From: Mesoterricola sediminis
Lineage (GTDB): Bacteria > Acidobacteriota > Holophagae > Holophagales > Holophagaceae
DNA length: 64,000 bases
Assembly: GCF_030295425.1 (NCBI RefSeq)
Contig: NZ_AP027081.1
Span: 4,137,001-4,201,000 of the forward strand
Reading direction: 5' to 3'
The position numbers and the translations under genes were made by a program. The notes under the pieces are model-generated. The model was not told the DNA's origin, ran no database searches, and saw nothing but the letters and a program-made list of their open reading frames with translations. Of the stretch, positions 24,471 to 44,856 are shown one piece after another; position 1 is the first letter of the stretch, and the number at the start of each line of letters is the position of its first letter.

Positions 24471-24500
24471 GATGTCGGCAGCAACCTGGAGGAAACCGTG

Positions 24501-26657
24501 ATGGGTCACGTTCGCGCGCTGTTCGCGGCGGCAGTCGTCCTGCCGCTGCTGGCCCAGCCCTCCCTGGACGCGCCCCAGGTCCGCGCCTGGGCCTGGGACG
24601 TGGTCAAGACCTGGCGCCTCCAGAAGCGCGACCTCCAGGGGAACCCCCTCTGGGACGCCACCCCCTTCATGGGGGCGGGCTACGAGGCGCAGAACGCCAC
24701 CCTCCTGGACCAGCTGGCCACGGGCGACGCCCGGAACCGGCGGGCGGCCCTCGTGGTGCTGGGCACCCGCCCCCTGGCCGACTGGGGCCCCCGGGGCCTG
24801 CGCAAGGACGCCTGCCGGGACGAAGTGGCCCTCTACCTCTACCGGCACGGCTACCGCTTCCCGGACCGGGAGCCCTTCCTCTACCTGGAGCCCGCTTCCC
24901 GCCTGGAGCGGCCCTGGACCCAGGGCCTGGGCCTCCACCTGGAGGGGGCCGCCTGGCGCTTCCAGTGGATCCCCTCAGCCGCCCTCCTGCCCGGCAAAGC
25001 CGGCGGCGCCCTGCCCCCCGCGCTGGAGGGCGCGCCCGCGCCCACGGCCCTCCTGCGCCTCGCCCACCTCCGGCCGGGGCTCCAGCGCCTGAGGGATCTG
25101 GCGGGCGGAAGCGAGGGCCTGCCCGCCGCCCTGGCCCAGGGCACCCGGGCCGGCTTCCTCCTCCGCCACCTGGGGCCCTGGCTGGACAAGGGCGGTCTCG
25201 AGGGCCTGGCCGACCGGGAGGCCTGGATCCTCCACTACGGCCTGGCCCGGGGCTTCGCCCCCGCCGAGGGCACCCTCGTGTTCCTTCCCGGCGACCTGCC
25301 CGGCCGGGTTTCCCTGGCCCTCGGCCTCCTGAAGTTGAATCCCACCACCGTCGGCGCCCGCTCCCGGACCGTCACCTGGGAGGACGGCCGGGGCGGCAAG
25401 GCCCAGGTCACCCAGGTCCGCGGGGCGGGCGGCGTCCTGCACCTGCTCGCGGGGCCCGGGGGCACCTGGATCTGCGACCGGGAGGCCCCCCTGCGGGCCG
25501 TGGCCTTCCCCTCCCCCCTGGTCACCCTCGCCGAGCGCCAGGCCTGGTGCGGCGTGGCCCTGGCCGGCCTCCGCCCCGGCACCGAGGCCTCCCTCTGGGT
25601 GCTGCCCCGCCTCGGGGCCGGGGCCGCCTTCGAGCGGGCCATGCTGCGCCGCCGGCTCCTGGGCGCGGACCAGCCCACCTGGGCCAACCCGGGCATCGCC
25701 AAGGCCGCGCCCCGCACCGGCGCCCTGTCCGCGGCCCTGGGCGCGGGGCCCACGGAGGCCCTGCTCCAGGCCGCGCTGCGCTTCGACCAGGACGGCATGC
25801 CCGCCCTCTCCCCCCTGCCCGAAGGCAACCTGCCCGTCCAGGCTTCGCAGCGCCAGGCCTGGGAGCGCGAGCGGGACGCCCTGGCCCGGCGGCGCCAGGA
25901 CCGGAGCGGCCTCCAGAAGGAGCTCGGCGCCCTGCTAGGCCTTCTGGACCTGCGCGGCGCCGCCTTCCTCTGGAACGGCTGGACCGCGCCGGAGCCCCTC
26001 ACGGCCGCCCAGCGCGCCGCCCTCGCGGACTTCCAGCGCCTGCGGAAGACGGATCCCCGGAAGGCCGCGGACCTGTTGGCCCACCGGCAGGTGGACGTGT
26101 ACGGCGGGTTCCTGGAGCCCGGGCTCGCGCCGGCCCTGGCCCTGGGGCTCCCCGTGAAGGCGGGCCGCGGGGGCGAGGTCCGGGAGGCCGTGGCGAAGCT
26201 GTGGCCGCGGCTCTTCAAGGGGCGGCAGCAGACCAGGGACTACGCCCAGGGCGTCCCCCTGCACCGGGTGCTCACGGACCAGGCCTTCCGGCCCTCCTGG
26301 GCCCTGGCCGGGGACGTGCTGGTGCTGGCCACCGACGACGAGGCCGCCAAGGCCATGCTGGCGGGCATCCTGGGCCAGGCCCCGAGCCTGGCGGACGCCC
26401 CGTCCCGCGCCTACGGCCGCGCGGAGCTCGACGGGCCCCGGGCGGCCCGGGACCTGGAGGTCCTGCTGCTGGCCTACCTTCGGGCCAACCGCGGCGGGGG
26501 CTACTGGTGGATGGGCGAGCCCGAGCCTTCCGGGGACGAGGCCGCCGCGGAGGTGGCCTCCACCTTCGGGCCCTTCCTGGGAGCCGTGAAGGCCCTGGGC
26601 CGCCGGGAGGTCCAGATCGAGCTCACCGCGGGCGGATTCGAGGCGACGCCGCGATGA
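24501..26657 (+). CDS. YfaA-like (DUF2138-like) protein of alpha-2-macroglobulin operon
   Basis: 718 residues. Signal peptide about 1-20 ([16 protein letters not shown]). No catalytic motif seen. The text resembles DUF2138/YfaA only in general, but position as first gene before DUF1175, A2M, DUF2135 and DUF2300 genes strongly suggests the YfaA role. In Pseudomonas the related Mag proteins form an inner-membrane complex with the macroglobulin. ATG 24501 with GGAGG eight bases upstream; a GTG directly before it is less likely. Its stop overlaps the next start as ATGA. Longer than E. coli YfaA (about 560). Confidence 0.65.
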
Positions 26658-27574
26658 AGCGCGCCCTCGCCGCCGCGGGCGCGGTCCTGGCCGCCGCCGC
26701 CCTCCTCGCGCCCGTGCGCCACCGGGTGCGCGTGGAGCGCGCCGAGGGCAACCCGGTCCAGCGCATCCGGCTGGAGAGCCGGTCCCTCCTGGGCCTGGCC
26801 CGGACGGCCTGGTTCGCCTCCGCCGGCGGGGACGTGCCCGCCTGGGGCGGCGCCCGCGAGGGCTTCTTCGCGGCGCCGACCGCCCCCGGCCGCGTGCGGA
26901 TCTCCGCCTGGCCCGGTTTCCGGCGGGACGTGGCGCTGACGCCCTCCGCCGATCCCGGCGCCATGCCCGCGGCCCGCGCGGACCAGGGCGACCGGGACGC
27001 CTTCCGGCGCTGGTTCGTGGCGATCCTGGAGGCCCAGCTGGACGGCCCGAGCCCGGCGTGGGAGCCCGCCCAGCGCGACTGCGCGGGCCTGCTCCGCTTC
27101 GCCTTCCGGGAGGCCTGGGCCCCGCACACCGAGGCCTGGCGCGCCCGCACCGGCTTCCCCGGATCCCCCGTGGGCGGCGACCCCGCCCGGGAGCTGGCCG
27201 GCCCCTGGGCCCAGGCCTTCCCCACCCCCGACGGGTGGAACGCCTTCGCCAAGGGCGCGTACCTTCGGCGCCTCGCCTGCGTGGACCTGGGCCGCGACAC
27301 CGCCGCCGCCCGCCCCGGCGACCTCGTCTTCTTCGCCCGGGGCGGCCCCCGCGCGACGCCGGACCACGCCATGGCCTTCGTGCGCCCCGACGTGGACGGC
27401 CAGCCCGTGCTCCTCTACCACACCGGACCCGAGGGCAGCGCGGAGGGCGAGGTGCGCCGCGTCCGCCTCGACGAGCTGCTCCACCACCCCGACGGCACGT
27501 TCCGCCCCGTGCCCGAGAACCCCGCCTTCCTCGGTGTCTACCGCTGGAAGGTGCTGGCCGACCCGACTCCCTGA
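26654..27574 (+). CDS. YfaT-like DUF1175 protein, NlpC/P60-like fold
   Basis: 306 residues with an N-terminal signal/anchor (about 3-22). The core has C143 in [16 protein letters not shown] and H238 in TPDHAMAFV, the Cys-His arrangement of NlpC/P60-type peptidases, and a [10 protein letters not shown] stretch. This fits DUF1175, found only beside yfaS-type macroglobulin genes as far as I recall. Possible substrate is peptidoglycan or a bound protein; not shown. Overlaps the upstream gene by 4 bases; 11 bases to the macroglobulin gene. Confidence 0.75.
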
Positions 27575-27585
27575 AAGGTGCTGTG

Positions 27586-30500
27586 ATGCGCTGGTCCACC
27601 TCCGTGCTCCTGATGTCCGCGGCCCTGCTCCTGGGGGGGATGCTCAATTCCTCCTCCCGCGCCCCGGAGGCCCCCTGGCGCGAGCGCGGCTGGACCGGCG
27701 CCTTCGCGGTGCCCCGGCCCGCCCTGCCGGGTCAGGCCGCCTGGCTCGAGGCCTCGGGCCCCATCCCCACCGACGTGCGCCTCCGCCTCCACCGGGTGGA
27801 CGATCCCCCCGCCTTCCTCGCGCGCCTCCTGGCCACCCCCGCCGGCGATCCCGCCCTGGAGGGCAGCCGCGCCGGCCTCGATCCCCTCGACGTCCTCCGG
27901 GAGGCCTTCCTCTGGGGCGGGCGCCGGGCCTTCGTCACCGTCCACCGCACCGCCTCCCGCGCGCTGCGGGACGCCGCCCGGGGCGCGGGAACCCTGCGCC
28001 CCCCCCTGCAGTCCGCCACGGAGCCCCGGGAGGGCGCGGCGGTGCCCCTCGCGGGCAGGCCCGGCCTGACCTTCGTGTCCGAGGTGGTCCCCCGGGTGAC
28101 GGAGGAGATCGCCCGCAGCCCCAAGCGCGCGGACGGCGGCGGCGAGCGCGAGGAGGGCCACCTGAGCCGCATCGAGCTCCCGGCCCAGGAGGCCGGCGTC
28201 TACCTGGTGGAGATCCTGCGGGACGGCGACGCCGCCTACGTGCCCTGGCTCGTCACCGACCTGGCCCTGCTGGGCGCCCAGGACGGCGCCAGCCTCCAGG
28301 TCCGGGCCGTGAGCGCCCGGGACGGCGCCCCCTACCCGGGCGTGCAGGGCCGCCTCTTCGAGGGCGCCCAGGCCCGTCCCCTCCCCTTCGGCGGGGACGG
28401 GGAGGCCCAGACGCAGGCCAGTCCGGGCGTGCGCCGGGTGGTCCTGGCCCAGGCCGGGCGCAACCTGGCCCTCCTGGCCAGCGAGGGCCAGGGCTCCGCC
28501 GCCGTGCGCCAGCGCCTCTACGCCTACACGGAGCGCCCCCTGTACCGGCCCGGCCAGGAGGTCTTCGTGAAGGCCGTCCTCCGCACCGTCGAGGGCGGGG
28601 AGAACCGGGTTCCCAGGGGCGTGGCCGAGCTCCCCTACACCGTGCTCGACCCCGAGGACACCAAGGTGGCCGAGGGGCGCGCCCGCCTCCTCAGCGCCGA
28701 GACCTGCACCTTCGGCGCCAGCGTCGTCCTCCCCGGCCAGGGGCGCCTGGGGGCCTACCGCTGGGTCTTCCAGGGCCCGCAGGGGCCCGCCCAGGCCGAA
28801 TTCAAGGTGGAGCAGTTCGTGAAGCCCGCCTTCGCCGTGGCGGTCACCGCCGACGCCCCCAAGGTGGGCCTCGACGATCCCATGGCCTTCAAGGTCGCGG
28901 CCCGCTATTTCTACGGCGCCGCCGTCCGCAAGGCCAAGGCGGACTGGTTCCTCTACCGCGTCGTGCCCCGCGCCCAGGGCTGGTGGACCCCCGAGGAGGA
29001 CGAGGGCCCCGCCCCCGAGCTCATGGAGAGCGGCCAGCTGGAGCTGGACGAGGACGGCGGCGCCGCCAGCCCCGTCTTCAAGGCCGCCGAGGACGGCCTG
29101 TACCGCTTCGTCGTCAAGGTGACGGACGGAAGCGGGCAGCAGAACTCCGGCAGCGCCCAGGTGCGCGCCTCCGCGGGCGACATGGTGCTCTTCGTGGGCA
29201 CGGACCGCGCCGTGGCGGCGCCCGGCAGGCCCTTCCAGGCCACGGCCAGGGCCGTCGACCTCGAGGGCCGCGAACTCCGCGCCGTGGACATCTCCCTCCG
29301 CGCCGCGCGCATCGTGGCCGAAAAGGAGAGCCGCGACTGGTGGGCCCGGACCTCGGCCCTCAAGCCGGGGGAGACCGTGGCCTCCGCGCGCGGCCCCCGT
29401 TCCGCCCTGACGATCGCCGAGGGCGGCGCCTACCTCGTGGTGGCGGAGGCCCTCGATTCCAAGGGCCGCCGGATCACGGCCCAGTGCATGGTCACCGTCG
29501 CCGCCGAAGGCACCCCCCTGCCCGCCGTCCCCGACCTGCGCGCCTCCGCCGACAAGACCCTGTACCAGGCGGGCGAGACGGCCCGGATCCTGGTGCGCCT
29601 GCCCAGTCCCCGCCTCACCCTCCACTGGACCGTGGAGCACGAAGGCCTCGCGCGCCACCACGCGCGCCGGATCGAGGGGACCACCGCGGTCGTGGAGGTC
29701 CCCGTGACGCCCGAGCTCCAGCCCAACGCCTGGGCCGTGTTCGAGATCGTGTCCGAGGGCCGCCGCCAGCTGGCCGAGGTGCCCATCCGCGCCCCCCGCG
29801 CCGACCGCCGCCTCCAGGTGGAGGTGAAGGCGGACCGCGACGCCTACCAGCCCGGCCAGCCCATGAAGCTCGCCGTCCAGGTCAAGGACCACCAGGGGCG
29901 GCCCGCCGCCGCCGACCTCAGCGTCGGCGTGGTGGACGAGGCCATCTACGCCCTCAGCCCCGAATTCCATCCCGACATCGTCCGGTTCTTCAACCCCACC
30001 CGCCACCACGCCGTCCTGCGCACCGGAAGCACGGAATGGAGCTTCTGGGACATCCTCCGCCGCCAGCGCCCGGTGTGGGCCCTGCGCCAGACCCGCCGCG
30101 GCGAGTTCAAGAGCGACGACGCCGACAAGGTCCGCCAGAACTTCAAGGACACGGCCCACTGGGTCCCCTTCCTCGCGGCCGGATCCGACGGGCGCGCCTC
30201 CACCCAGCTGGTCCTCCCCGACAACCTCACGGCGTGGCGCGCCACCGCGACGGCCGTCACCGCCGACACGCGCGCGGGGGTGGGCCGGGACAAGCGGACC
30301 GCCTCCAAGCCCCTCCAGGTGAGCCTCACCCTGCCCCGGACCCTGTCCCTGGGCGAGGAGGCCCGGGCCGTGGCCCAGGTGCGCAACCTCAGCGGGAAAC
30401 CCCTCCAGGGCAGGCTCTGGCTGGAAGTGACCAATGGGCGACTGGGCGGGACCACCTCCACCGGCTTCGACCTCCAGGACCAGGGCGAGCACCGGCTGAG

Positions 30501-32346
30501 CCTGCCCCTCTCGACGGCCGCCAGGGGCCCCCTCACCGTCACCGCGCGGGTGGAGGGCGGGGGCCTCAAGGACGCCGAGCGCCGCACCGTGGCCGTGGCC
30601 GATCCCCTCGTGCCCGCCAGCGTCAGCGGCTTCCTCCAGCTCCAGGGCGGGTCCGCCGCGGTGGATATCCCCGTGCCCCCGGGCGCGACCGGGGAGACCA
30701 GCCTCGTGGTGACCCCCGTGCGGAGCCTCGAGCAGCTCTGCCTGCCCAGCCTCCCCTACCTCATCGCCTACCCCTACGGCTGCGTGGAGCAGACCCTCTC
30801 CAGCTTCATGCCCAACCTCCAGGTGGCCGCCCTCGTCAAGAAGGGCGCCATGCCCGCGGTGGACTGGAAACAGCTGGTGGACCTGGACCGCAACATCCGG
30901 GACGGGGTGTTCCGGGTCTACGGCTACCAGATGGCGAACGGGGGCTGGGGCTGGTACGCGCCCCATGACTTCGGCCTCCAGGCCAATCCGCACACCACGG
31001 GCTACGCCCTCCAGAGCTTCGCGGCCATGCGGGCCCTGGGCTACCCCGTGGACGACGCGGTCTACGGCCGCGGCGTCCAGGCCGCCTTCAGCCTCTTCCG
31101 CGAATGTGCCCGGCGGGCCGACGCCCTCGCCCCGGGCGCCGTCCCCGAGCGGGGGGAGTCGGCGGATCCCGCCGGGGACGCGGCCTTCCTCCTCCAGGCC
31201 CTCGCCCGGACCGGGGAGCCTGTCGCCGGCCTCGTGGAGGCCACCGCCGCCAAGGTGCTCGCCGGCAAATGGGCGGGCGCCCACGTCGCCGCGCTGGCGG
31301 CCCAGGCCGCCGTCGCCTCCCGCCACCCCCGCGCCGGGGCCCTGCTGGACCGCCTCGAGCAGTCCGCCCAGGCCCAGGGCGGCCTCGCCCACTGGGAGGG
31401 GAACCGCAGGACCTGGCTGGAGTGGAGCTCCGGCGACGTCTTCCCCACCGTGGCGGCCCTCAAGGCCCTCCTGGAAGGCCGGCCCGCGTCGCCCCTCATC
31501 CCCCGGGGCGAGGCCTTCCTGGCCACGCGCTTCCAGGGCTACGGCTGGGAGTCCACCTGGAACACCGCCCAGGTGCTGGACCTCCTTCCCCTGATCGCCC
31601 GGACCCGCCCGCTGACGTGGTCCGGCGGCGACCTGAAGGCCGCCGTGGACGGCGGGCCCGCCTGGGACTTCTCCAGCGCCGAGGCGCCCCGGCCGCGGCG
31701 CTGGGGCTCCCGGGAGCCCCGCCCCGGTTTCCTGCCGATGGAGGCCCCGAAGCCCCTGCGCCTGACCGGGTCCGGCCGGGGCGTCCTGGTGTGGACGTAC
31801 GCCTACCAGGTGCCCGGCAGCGCGAGGCCCCCGCAGGCCGCCAACGCCTCGGGGGCGGCGCGCCTCTCCCTGAAGCGGGGCCTCTGGGCCCTCTCCTCCC
31901 CCCAGGCCACCGGGAACGCCCGCAGGGGCTGGGTCCGCCGGCCCTGGACCGGGAAGCTGGCGGTGGGGGACGAGGCCTGGATGGAACTGGAGGCCGGGGG
32001 TGACCACGAGGCCAGCTACGCCCTCCTGGAGGTCCCCATCCCCGCCGGGCTCGTCCCCAGCGTGAAGCTGGAGGGCTTCGTCCTGGAGGGCCGGCCCTTC
32101 TCCAACGCCGACGCCAGCGACGCCTGGTGGGACAAGCCCCGGGTGGAGGTCCACCCGGACCGGGTGACCTTCCTCTGGCAGAAGTTCTACCCCTGGAGCC
32201 CCCAGCGGGTCCGCATCCTGCTGCGGGCCGGCATGGCCGGGACCTACCGCATCCGCCCGGCCCGCCTCAGCCTGATGTCCAGCGAAGGCCAGTGGGTCAC
32301 CTGCGACGGCGCGGACCTCGCGGTGCGCGAAGGAGGTGCCCAGTGA
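27586..32346 (+). CDS. Bacterial alpha-2-macroglobulin (YfaS/MagD type) with thioester motif
   Basis: 1586 residues. Signal peptide or anchor about 1-22, no lipobox. Then macroglobulin-like domains, including a conserved LYAYTERPLYRPGQEVFVKAV block (about 310), the A2M core near SVGVVDEAIYAL (about 780), and the thioester-containing helical domain with PYGC1066-V-E-Q1069. A terpenoid-cyclase-like helical toroid follows to about 1350, then C-terminal macroglobulin domains. The known family mechanism is that bait cleavage exposes the thioester, which traps the protease. Neighbours identify it as the YfaS branch, where I recall the CxEQ is usually lost, so the intact motif is notable. Periplasmic by inference. 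Confidence 0.92.
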   Translation: MRWSTSVLLMSAALLLGGMLNSSSRAPEAPWRERGWTGAFAVPRPALPGQAAWLEASGPIPTDVRLRLHRVDDPPAFLARLLATPAGDPALEGSRAGLDPLDVLREAFLWGGRRAFVTVHRTASRALRDAARGAGTLRPPLQSATEPREGAAVPLAGRPGLTFVSEVVPRVTEEIARSPKRADGGGEREEGHLSRIELPAQEAGVYLVEILRDGDAAYVPWLVTDLALLGAQDGASLQVRAVSARDGAPYPGVQGRLFEGAQARPLPFGGDGEAQTQASPGVRRVVLAQAGRNLALLASEGQGSAAVRQRLYAYTERPLYRPGQEVFVKAVLRTVEGGENRVPRGVAELPYTVLDPEDTKVAEGRARLLSAETCTFGASVVLPGQGRLGAYRWVFQGPQGPAQAEFKVEQFVKPAFAVAVTADAPKVGLDDPMAFKVAARYFYGAAVRKAKADWFLYRVVPRAQGWWTPEEDEGPAPELMESGQLELDEDGGAASPVFKAAEDGLYRFVVKVTDGSGQQNSGSAQVRASAGDMVLFVGTDRAVAAPGRPFQATARAVDLEGRELRAVDISLRAARIVAEKESRDWWARTSALKPGETVASARGPRSALTIAEGGAYLVVAEALDSKGRRITAQCMVTVAAEGTPLPAVPDLRASADKTLYQAGETARILVRLPSPRLTLHWTVEHEGLARHHARRIEGTTAVVEVPVTPELQPNAWAVFEIVSEGRRQLAEVPIRAPRADRRLQVEVKADRDAYQPGQPMKLAVQVKDHQGRPAAADLSVGVVDEAIYALSPEFHPDIVRFFNPTRHHAVLRTGSTEWSFWDILRRQRPVWALRQTRRGEFKSDDADKVRQNFKDTAHWVPFLAAGSDGRASTQLVLPDNLTAWRATATAVTADTRAGVGRDKRTASKPLQVSLTLPRTLSLGEEARAVAQVRNLSGKPLQGRLWLEVTNGRLGGTTSTGFDLQDQGEHRLSLPLSTAARGPLTVTARVEGGGLKDAERRTVAVADPLVPASVSGFLQLQGGSAAVDIPVPPGATGETSLVVTPVRSLEQLCLPSLPYLIAYPYGCVEQTLSSFMPNLQVAALVKKGAMPAVDWKQLVDLDRNIRDGVFRVYGYQMANGGWGWYAPHDFGLQANPHTTGYALQSFAAMRALGYPVDDAVYGRGVQAAFSLFRECARRADALAPGAVPERGESADPAGDAAFLLQALARTGEPVAGLVEATAAKVLAGKWAGAHVAALAAQAAVASRHPRAGALLDRLEQSAQAQGGLAHWEGNRRTWLEWSSGDVFPTVAALKALLEGRPASPLIPRGEAFLATRFQGYGWESTWNTAQVLDLLPLIARTRPLTWSGGDLKAAVDGGPAWDFSSAEAPRPRRWGSREPRPGFLPMEAPKPLRLTGSGRGVLVWTYAYQVPGSARPPQAANASGAARLSLKRGLWALSSPQATGNARRGWVRRPWTGKLAVGDEAWMELEAGGDHEASYALLEVPIPAGLVPSVKLEGFVLEGRPFSNADASDAWWDKPRVEVHPDRVTFLWQKFYPWSPQRVRILLRAGMAGTYRIRPARLSLMSSEGQWVTCDGADLAVREGGAQ

Positions 32347-33173
32347 AGCCCGCCCTGTTCGCCGTCGTCGCCTGCGCCGCCCTGGCGGCGGCGCCGCCCC
32401 CCTACCGCCCCGACCCGTCCGCCTGGCGCCTGGAGGTGTCCCCCGGCCTCGGCGGCTGGATGGACGCCTCCGTCGTCACCCTCCGCCTGAAGGTCGTGGA
32501 CCCCAACGACCCCGAGCCCCCCCGGGAGGGCGCCGCCGCCTGGGATGACGCGCCCGACGAGGACGACCCCATGGACGAGGGCGGCGCCGCGGAAACGGAG
32601 GTCCAGCGCCGGGCCCGCTGGGAGGCCCGGGAGCGCGCCTGGGAAGCCCGCCGCGCCCGGAACGCCTGGCGGGACCGCACCGTCATCCTCTGGTTCAACG
32701 GGGAGGAGCGGCGGCGCTTCATCCGGGTCGGCTACCCCCTGGAAGAACGCCTCACCTGCCTGGGCGGCGAGAACCGGCTGGAGATCCTCGAGCCCGCCTC
32801 GGGCCAGCGCCTCGTCCGGACCTGGTGGGCGGCCTCGGGCCGGGCCCGGCTCGTGGTCCAGCAGGCGGCCGACGGGGACAGCCCCGGCGGCACCCTGGAG
32901 GTGGTGGAACCCGGGGGGGCCCTGGCGGCCTCCTACCGCCGCACGGCCTCGGGCGGCATGGCCGAATGGAACCGCTACACCCACCCCCACCCGCCCGCGG
33001 GCACGTACACCCTGCGCTGGACCGGCGTCTGGCGCGGCGGCAAGCCCGGCCTGATCACCGTGGAGGCCGTCCTGGACGCGGGCACCGAGCGGGAACGCCG
33101 GTGGTCCTTCCGGAAACTCCTGCTCCCCGGGGCCGGCCCCGTGGTCCTGGGCACGGTGGACGTGGAGGAGTGA
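32343..33173 (+). CDS. YfaP-like DUF2135 protein
   Basis: 276 residues. GTG start overlapping the macroglobulin stop (GTGA), with GAAGGAGGTG well placed. Signal peptide about 1-19. The body is beta-rich: NRLEILEPASGQRLVRTWW, then THPHPPAGTYTLRWTGVW, fitting DUF2135 of yfaS operons. An acidic, low-complexity loop (about 60-85, many D/E) followed by an Arg-rich helix is unusual. Possibly a macroglobulin partner; no enzymatic motif. Confidence 0.72.
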   Translation: MKPALFAVVACAALAAAPPPYRPDPSAWRLEVSPGLGGWMDASVVTLRLKVVDPNDPEPPREGAAAWDDAPDEDDPMDEGGAAETEVQRRARWEARERAWEARRARNAWRDRTVILWFNGEERRRFIRVGYPLEERLTCLGGENRLEILEPASGQRLVRTWWAASGRARLVVQQAADGDSPGGTLEVVEPGGALAASYRRTASGGMAEWNRYTHPHPPAGTYTLRWTGVWRGGKPGLITVEAVLDAGTERERRWSFRKLLLPGAGPVVLGTVDVEE

Positions 33174-33270: not shown

Positions 33271-35418
33271 ATGAGGCTCGGGCTTCTCGCGGGTCTGGCC
33301 CTCGCCGCCCGCCTCGGCGCCGGCGAGCCGCGCCTCCTGCCCGGGGAGGGCCTCGCGGTGGCGGAGGCGGAGGGCCCCGTCCGGGTCTGGGGCGAGGCCG
33401 GCCGGGAGACCCCCATGGGCAGCCTGGCGAAACTGGTCTGGCTGGCCCGGTCCGGGCCCGACTGGGCGGCCCGGGCCGTCACCTTCCGCTGCGATGGCCA
33501 CTGGGACGGCCTCCCCTGCTGGAACCGGGAGGGGCACGGGCCCGTGGACCTGGCCGCCGCGGCCCAGGCCAGCTGCAACCTCGCCTTCCTCGCCTGGGCC
33601 CGGGCCGACCTGGCCCGGGCCGAAGCCCGGCAGGGCCCCTCCGCCGCCCGGAGCGCCCTGGCGGCGGATTTCCGCCCCTTCCTCGGCCCGCGGGAACCCC
33701 CCGCCGGCCCCCTGGGCCCCGCCTGGATCGGCACCGGCACCCTGCTGCGCACCAGCCCCGCGGCCTTCGCGGCCTGGCTCGCCGCCCAGGGCGGCCTGCG
33801 GTCCCAGGCCGCCGGGCTCCTGGCCGACGCCGGGGGCGGGTGGGTGAAGACGGGCACCGCGGCCGCGGTGACGGACCCCCAGCGGACCTGGGCCTGGGCG
33901 GCCGGCGTCCGGGAAGGGCGGATCCTCGTCCTCCGCCTTCCGGAGGGCCGGGGAAAGGCGGAGGGCCTGGCCCGCTTCCGGGCGGTGGCCGACGCGCTCG
34001 CAGCGGGGGATCCCCCGCCCGTCTTCGCCGGGGACCCGGACGGGGAGGCCCGCCTCCGGGCGCCCCTGGCCGCCGCGGCCGAGGGGACCCGGGCCTGGGG
34101 CCCCTGGCCCGCCGGCACCTGGACCGTCCAGCTCCACACCCGCCCCGGCGCCTTCGAGGCCGCCACGGGGGCCCCGCCCCAGCGGGCCGCCCTCTGGGTG
34201 GGCGCCACCCTCCACCTGCGGCCCCTGGCCCAGCTCCAGCGCCGCGACCTGGGCGCCCTCCTCCGCCACGAACTGGTCCACCGCCGCCTCGCCGGGGCGG
34301 GGCTCCGCCCCTGGGAGGAGGAGGCCCGCTGCCTGGCCGCCGAAACCCAGGCCGCGCCTCCCGCCGTCTGGCCCGCGCCCCCGGAGGGGGCGGACCAGGC
34401 GGCCCTGGACCAGGCCCTCGCCAGGGGGACCACCCGGGCCCAGGCCTGGGCCTACGCGTACCTGCGGGCCTGGCTGGCGGGGATGCCGCCCCCCTCCCAT
34501 CGGCCGGCCGCCCCCCCGGAAGCCCCCGGCTGGCGGGAGGACCGCCCCGAGGCCCGGGTTACGGTTGTATGGCCTGTCGATCGCTTCCCCCGGGACCTGA
34601 CGGTCAACGGAGCACCCCTCCGGCCCGGCCCGCCCCGCACCTGGCGGGAAGGCGTCACCTTCGGCCCCGGGGCGCCCGTGGCGCGCCTGGAGGGGGAGGT
34701 GCGCATCGAACCAGCGGGCAGGAGCTGGCGGGTGGCCTGGAAGGTGCCCGCCTCCGCCTGGATCGCCGCCGCCGTGGACGGGGAGCTGGGCCCCGGGGCG
34801 CCCGCCGAGGCCCGCCGCGCCCTGGCGGCCGTGCTCGGCGCCTGGCTCGCGGCCCATCCGGGGGGCAACCACCCCGACGGCAGCCTCTGCCCCCTCACCC
34901 ACTGCGCCGTGATCCGGGGCCCGGGCTCCCCGGAGGCCCGGGAATCGGCGGCCGCCGCCCCCCGGGCGGAACCGGGCTGGATCTGGTTCTGCGCCTCCCA
35001 GGGCGGGGTCTCCCTCGCCCCCGCGGCCGTGTGGGGCCGCGGGCCGGTGGACGCGCCCCCCGGAGCCGCCGTTCCCGGCGATCCCTGGGCCGCCTGGACC
35101 CGCAGCCTCACCCCCGCCCAGGTCCAGGCCCTCAAGCGCCAGGTCCGGCCCGGCCTCGCCCCCGGGCAGCGGGGCCTCCGCCTGGGGCCCAGCGGCCCCT
35201 ACCCCGTGGAGGACCTCCGGCTCGCAGCCGGCCGGTCCTTCGGCTGGGCCACCTGGCCCAGCAACGCCTGCGCCGCCCAACTCCTCCCCGACGGGTCCCT
35301 CCGGCTGGAGGGCCACGGCCTGGGCCACAACGTGGGCCTCTGCCTCGCCACGGCCCGCCACCAGGCCGAGGCCGGCATGGCGGCCGAGGAGATCCTCCGG
35401 CGGGCCTTCGTCCCCTGA
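33271..35418 (+). CDS. YfaQ-like DUF2300 protein: PBP-like motifs plus SpoIID-like end
   Basis: 715 residues with signal peptide (about 1-17). The N-terminal part shows the three penicillin-binding-protein motifs in order and spacing: S51-L-A-K54, S101-C-N103 and K193-T-G-T196. A middle HELVH (333-337) looks like a zinc-peptidase motif. The last ~150 residues resemble SpoIID/LytB lytic enzymes: SLTPAQVQALKRQV, then GHGLGHNVGLCLATARHQAEAG and AEEILRRAF. It could bind or process peptidoglycan at the macroglobulin complex. Position matches YfaQ. Start follows the DUF2135 stop by 97 bases with a weak ribosome site. Confidence 0.75.
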   Translation: MRLGLLAGLALAARLGAGEPRLLPGEGLAVAEAEGPVRVWGEAGRETPMGSLAKLVWLARSGPDWAARAVTFRCDGHWDGLPCWNREGHGPVDLAAAAQASCNLAFLAWARADLARAEARQGPSAARSALAADFRPFLGPREPPAGPLGPAWIGTGTLLRTSPAAFAAWLAAQGGLRSQAAGLLADAGGGWVKTGTAAAVTDPQRTWAWAAGVREGRILVLRLPEGRGKAEGLARFRAVADALAAGDPPPVFAGDPDGEARLRAPLAAAAEGTRAWGPWPAGTWTVQLHTRPGAFEAATGAPPQRAALWVGATLHLRPLAQLQRRDLGALLRHELVHRRLAGAGLRPWEEEARCLAAETQAAPPAVWPAPPEGADQAALDQALARGTTRAQAWAYAYLRAWLAGMPPPSHRPAAPPEAPGWREDRPEARVTVVWPVDRFPRDLTVNGAPLRPGPPRTWREGVTFGPGAPVARLEGEVRIEPAGRSWRVAWKVPASAWIAAAVDGELGPGAPAEARRALAAVLGAWLAAHPGGNHPDGSLCPLTHCAVIRGPGSPEARESAAAAPRAEPGWIWFCASQGGVSLAPAAVWGRGPVDAPPGAAVPGDPWAAWTRSLTPAQVQALKRQVRPGLAPGQRGLRLGPSGPYPVEDLRLAAGRSFGWATWPSNACAAQLLPDGSLRLEGHGLGHNVGLCLATARHQAEAGMAAEEILRRAFVP

Positions 35419-35468: not shown

Positions 35469-35546
35469 TGGGGCGGATGATGGGACTCGAACCCACGACA
35501 CCTGGAATCACAATCCAGTACTCTAACCAACTGAGCTACATCCGCC
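35469..35546 (-). tRNA. tRNA-His (anticodon GTG)
   Basis: Full cloverleaf on the minus strand: acceptor GCGGATG/CATCCGC, D-arm GCTC..GAGT, anticodon stem CTGGA/TCCAG with loop TTGTGAT (GTG anticodon), T-arm GTGGG-TTCGAGT-CCCAT. The extra 5-prime G (-1) opposite C73 is the histidine identity feature. CCA is encoded (35471-35469). Confidence 0.95.
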
Positions 35547-42269: not shown

Positions 42270-43024
42270 ATGCCGAGACGTTTCCTGACCGATGCCATGT
42301 GGGCAAAGCTTGAACCGCTCCTTCCGCCAGAGCGTGGAGGGATGGGGCGATCCCGTCACCCCAACCGTCCCATGGTGGAGGCGATCCTGTGGAGGCACAG
42401 GACTGGGGCGCCGTGGAGGGACCTGCCGGAGGAATCTGGACCTTGGACAAGCGTGTACACGCGATTTGAGGCCTGGACCAAGCGCGGCGTGTGGCAAAGG
42501 ATCCTGGAGTTCCTGCGCAAGGAAGCCGACCTGGAGTGGGTCATGCTGGATGGCACCATCCTTCGCGCTCATCAACCTTCAGCAGGCAAAAGGGGGGGCT
42601 CTGGAACCAGGCGCTCGGACGATCTCGGGGTGGATGCTCGACCAAGATCCATTTGATCTGCGATGCCCACGGTAATCCTTTGGATTTCCTGGTCACTCCG
42701 GGGCAAGCCCATGAAAGCCGGTCTGCTGAAGGATTGCTGTGCGGTTGGCAGGCAGAGTACGTGTCCGGAGATCGGGCCTACGATGGGAACCCGGTAAGGA
42801 AGGCGATCGAGGCCATGGGTGCGACAGTCGTCATCCCACCTCATCCCCGGCGCAAGAATCCGGCGGCCTGGGACGCACACCTATACAAGGCCCGCCATGC
42901 CATCGAGCATGGGTTCGCCAAGTTCAAACAGTTCAGGGCGCTGGCCGCCAGGTTCGACAAAACGGCGCGAAGTTTCTCAGCCCAGGTGGCTTTGGCCTGC
43001 ATCGTGATCTGGCTGAGGCTATGA
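42270..43024 (+). CDS. IS5-family transposase, orfA and orfB joined by -1 frameshift
   Basis: OrfA (42270-42656 if unshifted, 128 residues) holds the DUF4096 N-terminus (FLTDAMWAKLEPLLPPE, then GAPWRDLP) and the first catalytic D in VMLDGTILRAH. OrfB, in the -1 frame through 43024, continues with LWNQALGRSRGG, second D in YVSGDRAYDGN and the E region in HAIEHGFAKFKQFRAL. The frames join at AAAAGGGGGGG (42588-42598), a slippery run placed exactly where IS5-family proteins read through from GKRGG. The fused protein has about 250 residues, with all DDE residues present, so it may be active. Confidence 0.88.
42588..42598 (+). other. Programmed frameshift site A4G7
   Basis: AAAAGGGGGGG read in orfA frame as AAA AGG GGG G. 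Slipping back one base enters orfB at GG-LWNQALG, restoring the family sequence. Confidence 0.8.
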
Positions 43025-43572: not shown

Positions 43573-43620
43573 GCCTTGCCAAGACGCCTCGGTAGCCTAT
43601 AGTTGCAAGAAGAGGCGACC

Positions 43621-44856
43621 ATGGCGAGGACTGCGGCGACGCTCCCGGCAGGGAGTCGGATCACCGATTACATGAGCTTGGGGGTAGTGGCAAAGACCTT
43701 CCCCCGAACCCACGTTGACGATGTTTTAAAACGCACAGGCAAGACCGGTGCGCGGCAACGGGACCTCCCCGCCCATGTCGTCGTCTACTACGTGATCGCT
43801 CTCGCGTTATTCATGCAGGCTTCCTACGGTGAGGTGCTGAGGTGCCTGCTGGAAGGCGTCCAATGGTTGATGGACAAGGCTGTCGAGCCGAAGGTCTCCC
43901 ACAAATCCAGCATTTCCCAGGCCCGAATTCGGCTTGGTTGGGAACCGATGAAGGTGCTTCACGACGAGATCGTCAAGCCTATCGCGACGCCTCAGACACG
44001 GGGTGCCTGGTTTCGAAACTGGCGGCTGGTGAGCATTGACGGAAGCACCCTTGATGTTCCAGATGAGGCTGAGAACGAGGCAGCCTTCGGATCCATAGAG
44101 TCATCACGAGGCAAAGTCGCATTCCCGAAGGTCCGGTTTGTTTGCCTCTGCGAGCTTGGGACCCATGTGATGTTCGGGAGCTGCGTAGATTCCTATGAGG
44201 TCGGAGAGGTTGCCTTGGCGGAGGACGTGTTACCCCTGCTCGAACCAGGGATGCTCTGCCTGGCCGATCGCGGATTCAATTGCTTCAAGCTATGGAAGTT
44301 GGCCCAAGGAACCGGGGCTGATCTCCTTTGGCGCCTGCGTAAGGACATGAACCTGCCCAGGGAGAAGCAACTGCAGGATGGAAGCTACCTGAGCACCTTC
44401 TACGAGTATTGGTATGACCGGAAGAAGTCCACGAATGGAATTCGGGTCCGCGTTGTGGAATACACCCTGGAGGGGATGGAGGGAGCGGAACCGATCTACC
44501 GCCTGGCGACTACCATCCTCGATCCAGAGAAAGCCCCAGCCAGGGAATTGGCTGCCCTCTATCACGAGCGATGGGAGATCGAGAGTGCGTTCGATGAATT
44601 GAAGACCCATCTCCGGGGTCGCCAGGTAACCCTTCGAAGCAAGACGCCTGACCTGGTCAGACAGGAGTTCTACGGGATGATGATGGCCCACTTTTCCATC
44701 CGCGGCCTGATGCATGAAGCGGCCCTGAAGGGGGATGTCGATCCCGATCGTTTATCGTTCCTGCACGCAGTTCGGGTGATTCGCCGCAAGCTGACGCGTT
44801 TCGCGTCTCTCCCCCCCTCGGGAAAGGCCAGCATTCCATCAGAGCGTCCTATCTGA
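43621..44856 (+). CDS. IS4-family transposase
   Basis: 411 residues. N-terminal IS4-type domain about 10-105 (FPRTHVDDVLKRTGK, then VVYYVIALALFMQASYGEVL). DDE catalytic residues: D in VSIDGSTLDVPD (about 143), D in CLADRGFN and E in YHERWEIESAFDELK, which fits the Y(2)R(3)E(6)K signature exactly. Full length and probably active. ATG 43621 with AAGAGG upstream; a TTG at 43603 is less likely. About 200 non-coding bases separate the stop from the right end. Confidence 0.93.
   Translation: MARTAATLPAGSRITDYMSLGVVAKTFPRTHVDDVLKRTGKTGARQRDLPAHVVVYYVIALALFMQASYGEVLRCLLEGVQWLMDKAVEPKVSHKSSISQARIRLGWEPMKVLHDEIVKPIATPQTRGAWFRNWRLVSIDGSTLDVPDEAENEAAFGSIESSRGKVAFPKVRFVCLCELGTHVMFGSCVDSYEVGEVALAEDVLPLLEPGMLCLADRGFNCFKLWKLAQGTGADLLWRLRKDMNLPREKQLQDGSYLSTFYEYWYDRKKSTNGIRVRVVEYTLEGMEGAEPIYRLATTILDPEKAPARELAALYHERWEIESAFDELKTHLRGRQVTLRSKTPDLVRQEFYGMMMAHFSIRGLMHEAALKGDVDPDRLSFLHAVRVIRRKLTRFASLPPSGKASIPSERPI

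Follow-up and report, generated by a model that had tools for sequence, protein, structure and literature searches.

A predicted PBP-like, HExxH and SpoIID-type fusion protein in the alpha-2-macroglobulin operon of Mesoterricola sediminis

The window analysed here is a stretch of 64,000 nucleotides from Mesoterricola sediminis (Acidobacteriota, Holophagaceae; RefSeq assembly GCF_030295425.1, contig NZ_AP027081.1, positions 4,137,001 to 4,201,000). It carries a set of five genes (Table 1) made up of a gene in the DUF2138/MagB position, a DUF1175 gene, an alpha-2-macroglobulin gene, a DUF2135 gene and, in last place, the fused gene that interests us. A mag-type gene set (DUF1175, macroglobulin, DUF2135 and a YfaQ-type gene) is present in the window. 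The fused gene is followed by a convergent tRNA-His (35469-35545, minus strand). Two transposase-like ORFs lie further along the window (42270-43024 and 43603-44856), the first being divided between two overlapping frames in the manner of IS5-type elements. None of the operon proteins matches a defence family in PADLOC. A plasmid origin of the operon was considered and rejected, since the operon-bearing plasmid matches come only from E. coli, Citrobacter and Deinococcota. The product of the fused gene is predicted to be exported and to combine a PBP-like domain with a SpoIID-type domain and, between them, a probable zinc peptidase.

Table 1. Features of the macroglobulin operon and of the fused protein, in window coordinates
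Feature	Position	Strand	Basis
Gene in DUF2138/MagB position, without a Pfam match of its own	24498..26657	+	position only
DUF1175 protein, NlpC/P60-like, conserved C143-H238-H256	26654..27574	+	DUF1175 4e-45; NLPC_P60 0.015
Alpha-2-macroglobulin, thioester motif GCVEQ at nt 30778-30792	27586..32346	+	
DUF2135-type protein, YfaP/MagF-like position	32343..33173	+	iterated profile reaches YfaP and other operons
Fused gene of 715 aa encoding a signal peptide and the PBP-like, HExxH and SpoIID modules	33271..35418	+	ORF; modules separate or reordered in relatives
Probable signal peptide, residues 1-17	33271..33321	+	by inspection, a short hydrophobic start; model helix 3-14
N-module, PBP/serine-beta-lactamase-like domain, residues ~18-240	33322..33990	+	PBP matches and fold
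SLAK: S51 (predicted nucleophile), K54	33421..33432	+	
SCN: S101, N103	33571..33579	+	
KTGT: K193-T196	33847..33858	+	
HExxH module, residues ~244-425, gluzincin-like zinc peptidase candidate	34000..34545	+	
HELVH, residues 333-337	34267..34281	+	
Third-ligand candidates E349-E351	34315-34323	+	
SpoIID/LytB-type module, residues 426-715	34546..35415	+	
E505, equivalent of C. difficile SpoIID catalytic E101	34783..34785	+	profile alignment; PMC6221140
H534, C540, H544, C545: counterpart of SpoIID zinc site	34870..34905	+	H534 by position only; PMC6221140
GHGLGHNVG, C-terminal SpoIID signature	35311..35337	+	

The original prediction had pointed to penicillin-binding motifs, a HExxH motif and a SpoIID-like end in this protein, and all of them are found where it placed them (SLAK at residue 51, SCN at 101, KTGT at 193 and HELVH at 333, with the SpoIID signature at the C-terminus). 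Shuffling the sequence 200,000 times did not once produce the ordered triad SxxK-(36-66)-SxN-(70-110)-K[ST]G, and the motif residues are conserved in the operon-linked homologues despite an overall identity of about 45-55%. The motif spacings of 50 and 92 residues are typical of class D beta-lactamases and BlaR-type domains and not of the longer PBPs. When the window protein was searched alone against the PDB, the sole match was PBP2 (E 0.0086, residues 81-107), where LPCWNREGHGPVDLAAAAQASCNLAFL aligns with FRCWNRSGHGPVDLKHAIKYSCDVYFY. A profile of 12 Holophagaceae N-modules matched seven sequences in the whole PDB, all of them PBPs (PBP2 best at 2.8e-6 and again at 6.7e-5, together with MrdA and SpoVD), with SxxK and SxN/D in register throughout and KTG in register in one. 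After the addition of three Terriglobia members, the best four matches were PBPs, with a value of 3e-12 across residues 42-238. This extended profile additionally picks up some designed 'Pizza' proteins, in weak matches that are confined to a short segment and are not meaningful. The Terriglobia counterparts match the Pfam Transpeptidase family (PF00905) at 1.5e-28 to 4e-22, and the window protein has no PF00905 match above the cut-off. Profile-profile comparisons link the N-module to its Terriglobia counterparts (1.1e-4) and to the N-terminal domain of YfaQ (8.8e-6), with a control at 0.24.

The two halves of the protein were modelled apart because a full-length alignment of split genes and fused protein misplaced the N-modules. 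The AlphaFold model of the N-module (11 sequences, pTM 0.76) resembles class D and class A beta-lactamases and BlaR1 in Foldseek (probability ~1, TM ~0.5); there are 153 PDB matches at E<=0.001, of which the best 50 are all beta-lactamases or BlaR1. The model has a beta-lactamase/transpeptidase fold, with a helix beginning at S51, a pair of helices flanking S101 and a strand carrying K193. Judged by this topology, the fold does not look like one in which these three residues are far apart, the outcome that would have refuted the original prediction. The S-x-V that forms motif 2 of class D beta-lactamases is absent, SCN being found in the N-module. By motif and predicted fold, the N-module belongs to the serine penicilloyl-transferase superfamily, though it scores below the Pfam cut-off.

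The HExxH motif on its own is found in 1.1% of the shuffles of the window protein. It is invariant as H-E-x-x-H in seven aligned Holophagaceae members, HELVH being the form in the window, and the glutamate pair E350/E351 is invariant among them as well. The module is modelled with a pLDDT of ~90 over residues 12-170 of the HExxH-SpoIID half, and its best Foldseek matches are the M1 gluzincins LTA4H and ERAP1, which are weak (LTA4H probability 0.90, E 0.26). It is homologous (3.5e-9) to HExxH domains that adjoin macroglobulins in Terriglobia and Deinococcota, and it is only through these domains that it can be linked (3e-4) to the C-terminal HEYLH of YfaQ; compared directly, the profiles of the Holophagaceae module and of the C-terminus in Proteobacteria show no significant link (E 0.29). 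These data suggest that the module is probably a zinc peptidase.

Against the curated families, the C-terminal module does not reach the scores of PF08486 or TIGR02669 (E 0.0037 with the latter, a weak match below the cut-off), and its counterparts in relatives pass. The link to SpoIID was made in two steps. The C-terminus of the window protein matches the Terriglobia SpoIID domains in profile-profile comparison (1.8e-16 over 232 columns), and the Terriglobia profile in turn matches the solved SpoIID structures of C. difficile and B. anthracis (1e-28) with the catalytic glutamate aligned. In C. difficile, E101 is catalytic and C140, H145, C146 and H134 form the zinc site (PMC6221140). Through the Terriglobia profile, E505 of the window protein falls on E101, and C540, H544 and C545 fall on C140, H145 and C146, H534 being matched to H134 by position only. 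E505 is the only glutamate invariant across all 14 aligned members, from the window to E. coli. The metal site is a clostridial feature of SpoIID, and its counterpart residues are present in the window protein. Since the SpoIID half was modelled poorly (pTM 0.40) and Foldseek was uninformative on it, the fold assignment rests on sequence profiles. By these profiles and by its conserved residues, the C-module belongs with SpoIID/LytB, though it falls below the curated scores when taken alone. Taken together, the profile matches, the fold match of the N-module and the conservation in operon-linked homologues indicate that the motifs of the original prediction mark true homologous domains.

The distribution of the three modules in relatives was studied with iterated profile searches seeded with the window modules alone and, later, with a search using a Terriglobia PBP profile. 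The window protein carries PBP, HExxH and SpoIID in one chain, which is a new architecture. In Geothrix and relatives, a PBP gene is followed by a HExxH-SpoIID gene, and in some Holophagaceae these two genes lie apart in the genome or the HExxH module is split off beside DUF1175. Two Terriglobia loci (L075 and L094) encode PBP-SpoIID-HExxH in one chain and four others (L062, L067, L068 and L131) a PBP gene followed by a SpoIID-HExxH gene; the Terriglobia module genes are convergent with the macroglobulin, and the catalytic residues of the PBP-like module are kept in all six loci. The Proteobacterial YfaQ reads PBP-like-SpoIID-HExxH. On Deinococcota plasmids, a HExxH gene stands alone after the macroglobulin; two such plasmids carry minimal operons (L133:8899-14712 and L134:2285-8673) composed of DUF1175, the macroglobulin and a HExxH-module protein annotated as hypothetical. 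Whether separate or re-fused, the modules of the relatives usually adjoin a macroglobulin, and the fact that one set of three modules has been recombined again and again next to this operon suggests that they work in one process. A sequencing frameshift was considered as the origin of the fusion in the window and discarded, since the signal-peptide-like start of the second protein in split relatives is absent at the junction rather than out of frame.

A retention test was carried out on about 55 Holophagaceae genomes, comprising a first set and a hold-out set of 24, in which DUF1175 served as the marker of the operon and an intact site was defined as S-K-S-N-K-[TS]-G. Overall, 30 of the 31 genomes with DUF1175 have an intact active site, and the site is altered in all 24 without it, where the gene is nonetheless kept. 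In the first set, it is intact in 14 of the 15 genomes that have both DUF1175 and the N-module, the genome of the window included. One of these 14 (G034) comes from an assembly that is 76% complete and in which no macroglobulin was found. The exception (G028, 91% complete) also has DUF1175 without a macroglobulin being found, and has lost K54. None of the 16 genomes of the first set without DUF1175 has an intact site: S51 is replaced by G, C, D, E, M, N or A, the only serine retained being accompanied by the loss of K54, and just one of these genomes (G002) has a macroglobulin match, which is distant (34%). The hold-out set was made up of further genomes of one genus (g4, including Geothrix-like genomes) for which the presence or absence of DUF1175 had been established beforehand; the site is intact in 16/16 with DUF1175 and in 0/8 without it (Fisher p 5e-7, a value that counts the two ORF pieces of one genome separately and ignores relatedness).

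Missing assembly does not explain this pattern, since complete or nearly complete genomes are found on both sides (G025 and G035 without the operon marker, G008 with it). The altered N-modules could have been one old paralogue. Yet, they are scattered on the tree, and the trees require the site to have switched between the intact and the altered state four times or more, with well-supported branches behind this count, so this explanation was rejected. Given these repeated changes, we conclude that whether the PBP-type active site is under selection depends on the macroglobulin operon. The genome of the window has both kinds of N-module, an intact copy in the operon and an altered second one. 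This second copy (G000:C1:2514053-2514781, or L032:6054-6746 on the minus strand) reads P-H-G-S-D-A-V, every catalytic residue having been replaced. More generally, the altered copies (L017-L030 and L188-L193) keep their ORF and often have D-C-D or D-C-N in place of S-C-N; a new function is possible for them. None of five other genomes of the genus (G001-G005) has DUF1175 or a close homologue of the window macroglobulin; the window genome may thus have gained the operon, or the others may have lost it.

The partners of the fused gene also deserve consideration. The thioester motif of the window macroglobulin is intact and, judging by it, this protein is not a textbook 'type II' macroglobulin. 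GCxEQ is found in 52 of the 83 macroglobulins scored in mag-type operons, most of them outside Pseudomonas and the enterics; the position reads GGVEQ in most Pseudomonas and GGV[IV]N in enterics. The 'type II without thioester' condition therefore looks like a lineage-specific loss. The nearly invariant Cys-His-His of DUF1175 (YfaT/MagC), together with its weak NlpC/P60 match, suggests that this protein is probably a cysteine peptidase. The order in the Pseudomonas loci studied, P. aeruginosa not being among them, is DUF2135, the DUF2138-position gene, DUF1175, macroglobulin, YfaQ-type gene and DUF2135, and we infer by synteny that the counterpart of the window protein is MagE and not MagF. 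Two tandem DUF2135 genes are seen in the operons of two Holophagaceae genomes (L033 and L035), and Burkholderiales loci often have two also.

Bacterial macroglobulin operons are usually read as protease traps in which the partner genes mainly stabilise the trap. The retention of the PBP active site in Holophagaceae only alongside the operon suggests that this protease-trap system is tied to cell-wall work. We regard as the best explanation, and as more likely than not, that the window protein is an exported, cell-wall-directed enzyme serving a macroglobulin-centred envelope-defence operon. In that case, it would act in the periplasm on damaged peptidoglycan. The PBP-like domain would work on, or sense, stem peptides ending in D-Ala, through DD-peptidase, transpeptidase or acyl-enzyme sensing activity. 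DUF1175, as a likely NlpC/P60-type cysteine peptidase, would supply stem cleavage. SpoIID acts on peptide-stripped glycan and depends on prior amidase action (PMC6221140), and the SpoIID domain could then clear the stripped glycan. The macroglobulin would meanwhile disarm the proteases that entered at the breach, the whole serving to 'clean and secure the breach'. Transpeptidation is unlikely as a universal role, given that SxN and KTG have drifted in YfaQ and that the module set is mainly degradative, SpoIID cutting glycan. Several observations weigh against the wall-enzyme explanation: Proteobacterial homologues have SC[GA] for SxN and KT[WF] for KTG and lack the SpoIID metal site and C-terminal signature, which suggests that the full reaction set is dispensable in some lineages; the minimal Deinococcota operon has neither PBP nor SpoIID modules; and MagE of P. 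aeruginosa, the syntenic counterpart, has been reported to be cytoplasmic (PMC5764988). The original prediction, which read the protein as a combination of PBP-like, HExxH and SpoIID parts in a macroglobulin operon that joins protease trapping to wall repair, is borne out as to the composition of the protein, and the fate of the protein is tied to the operon; wall repair by it is a plausible hypothesis, and a role matching that of PbpC a further one.

The main rival to this explanation assigns the firing of the macroglobulin to the HExxH domain, acting as a protease. Damaged peptidoglycan would then be sensed by the PBP-like and SpoIID domains and the HExxH domain would cleave the macroglobulin bait, as a 'convertase', so that the thioester is fired at the damage. 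HExxH is present in every architecture seen (as HDLLH in one member) and is kept in the smallest operons, those of Deinococcota with DUF1175, macroglobulin and HExxH; moreover, the thioester of the window macroglobulin is intact, and the deletion of magE in P. aeruginosa changes MagD processing (PMC5764988), although the higher-mass MagD forms of the mutant may merely carry an unprocessed signal peptide. The pairing of PBP-like and HExxH domains and the BlaR1 fold match also recall BlaR1, whose domain order and membrane insertion are however unlike those of the soluble window protein. As, in addition, the zinc-peptidase fold match is weak (probability 0.90, E 0.26), the thioester has been lost in most Pseudomonas and enteric macroglobulins and no bait cleavage by this domain is known, we consider this scenario a serious alternative of rather low probability. 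A complement-like version of it, in which a secreted protein would read peptidoglycan damage through its PBP-like and SpoIID domains and its zinc-protease domain would cleave and fire a thioester macroglobulin at the breach, as convertases fire C3, is improbable.

Other rivals concern the PBP-like domain. It could be a non-catalytic scaffold or simply bind peptidoglycan, which is what its decayed homologues seem to do: an open frame persists in the 24 genomes with an altered site and in the second copy of the window genome, and the Proteobacterial copies have drifted motifs. Yet all catalytic residues are conserved in 6/6 Terriglobia loci and in 30 of the 31 Holophagaceae that carry the operon, which makes this quite improbable for the window protein. 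Alternatively, the domain could hydrolyse or sense beta-lactams in the manner of class D enzymes or BlaR1, and the operon would respond to these compounds. The size, the motif spacing and the best fold matches of the domain are indeed class D/BlaR1-like, but motif 2 is SxN, of PBP/class A type, rather than the class D SxV, the sequence profiles match class B PBPs and not beta-lactamases, and the linkage is to a macroglobulin and SpoIID rather than to a repressor or an ampC-like regulon. This last reading is therefore very improbable. If the wall-enzyme explanation is right, one partner of a macroglobulin operon is a three-domain wall enzyme, which would provide a testable answer, namely that the macroglobulin system includes dedicated wall chemistry. 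Geothrix has been cultured and, in contrast to E. coli and Pseudomonas, has complete active sites in both its PBP and SpoIID modules, which makes biochemistry feasible where activity should persist.

Among known systems, the closest is YfaQ/DUF2300 of E. coli, syntenic with Pseudomonas MagE. The original prediction had named the window protein DUF2300. Pfam DUF2300 (PF10062) matches neither this protein nor any in 99 genomes of the phylum, its own included, so the label does not hold as a family assignment; it does hold in the sense of a positional and modular counterpart. As BLAST gives no significant match between the window protein and YfaQ, their homology is shown by profiles (8.8e-6 between N-modules, 3.1e-13 for SpoIID via Terriglobia and 3e-4 for HExxH, via Terriglobia only). 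Both share their class of operon position, export, a PBP-like N-domain with SxxK, a SpoIID domain with an invariant glutamate and a HExxH motif. YfaQ differs in having the order PBP-SpoIID-HExxH with a C-terminal HExxH instead of PBP-HExxH-SpoIID, in its drifted SC[GA] and KT[WF], and in a SpoIID domain without the metal-site Cys/His and the GHG...GHGVG end. A 2025 study describes E. coli YfaQ as bipartite, with transpeptidase features at the N-terminus and SpoIID similarity at the C-terminus, and reports that cells lacking yfaQ are wider and that this deletion groups with those of mepS, mepK and nlpI; it names neither a macroglobulin nor YfaT or YfaS, and is not known to mention a HExxH domain (PMC12282094). 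Within the open-access literature, the HExxH module, the macroglobulin link, the shuffling and the co-loss are additions to the published YfaQ work. In P. aeruginosa, MagE has been treated as a possible chaperone or processing factor, its deletion altering MagD processing (PMC5764988), and magD protects against the peptidoglycan-targeting T6SS effectors VgrG3 and Tae1 by a mechanism that was left open (PMC12663445, 2025).

The individual modules have relatives of their own. The C-module shares with SpoIID/LytB (C. difficile 5txu and B. anthracis 4rwr) the catalytic glutamate, a CxxxHC-type metal site and the GHGxGHxVG C-terminal signature, and differs by its fusion to PBP-like and HExxH modules, its location in a macroglobulin operon and its scores below the curated cut-offs. 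The N-module has the SxxK, SxN and KTG of class B PBPs (PBP2/MrdA and SpoVD; PF00905) and shares a nearly literal CWNRxGHGxVDL..SCN stretch with PBP2. Unlike these, it is ~220 residues long and lacks many PBP insertions, the dimerisation domain and the membrane anchor. BlaR1/MecR1 likewise pair a class D-like serine domain with a HExxH metalloprotease and match the N-module fold; nevertheless, in BlaR1, which is integral to the membrane, the peptidase comes first, whereas the window protein is predicted to be soluble, with the sensor-like domain first and a SpoIID domain in addition. By inspection, its signal peptide is its only hydrophobic segment, and a membrane-embedded protease of the BlaR1 type is absent. 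In YfhM (ECAM)-PbpC, a macroglobulin is also encoded beside a PBP-type protein, and the pairing of thioester macroglobulins with PBP1c has been published. PbpC, however, is a full class A PBP (PBP1c), in contrast to the minimal PBP-like domain and larger operon of the window, where this domain has predicted peptidoglycan-cutting partners. As a whole, the protein is a YfaQ/MagE variant that is set apart by its module order, by a complete active site and by a partner macroglobulin that bears a thioester.
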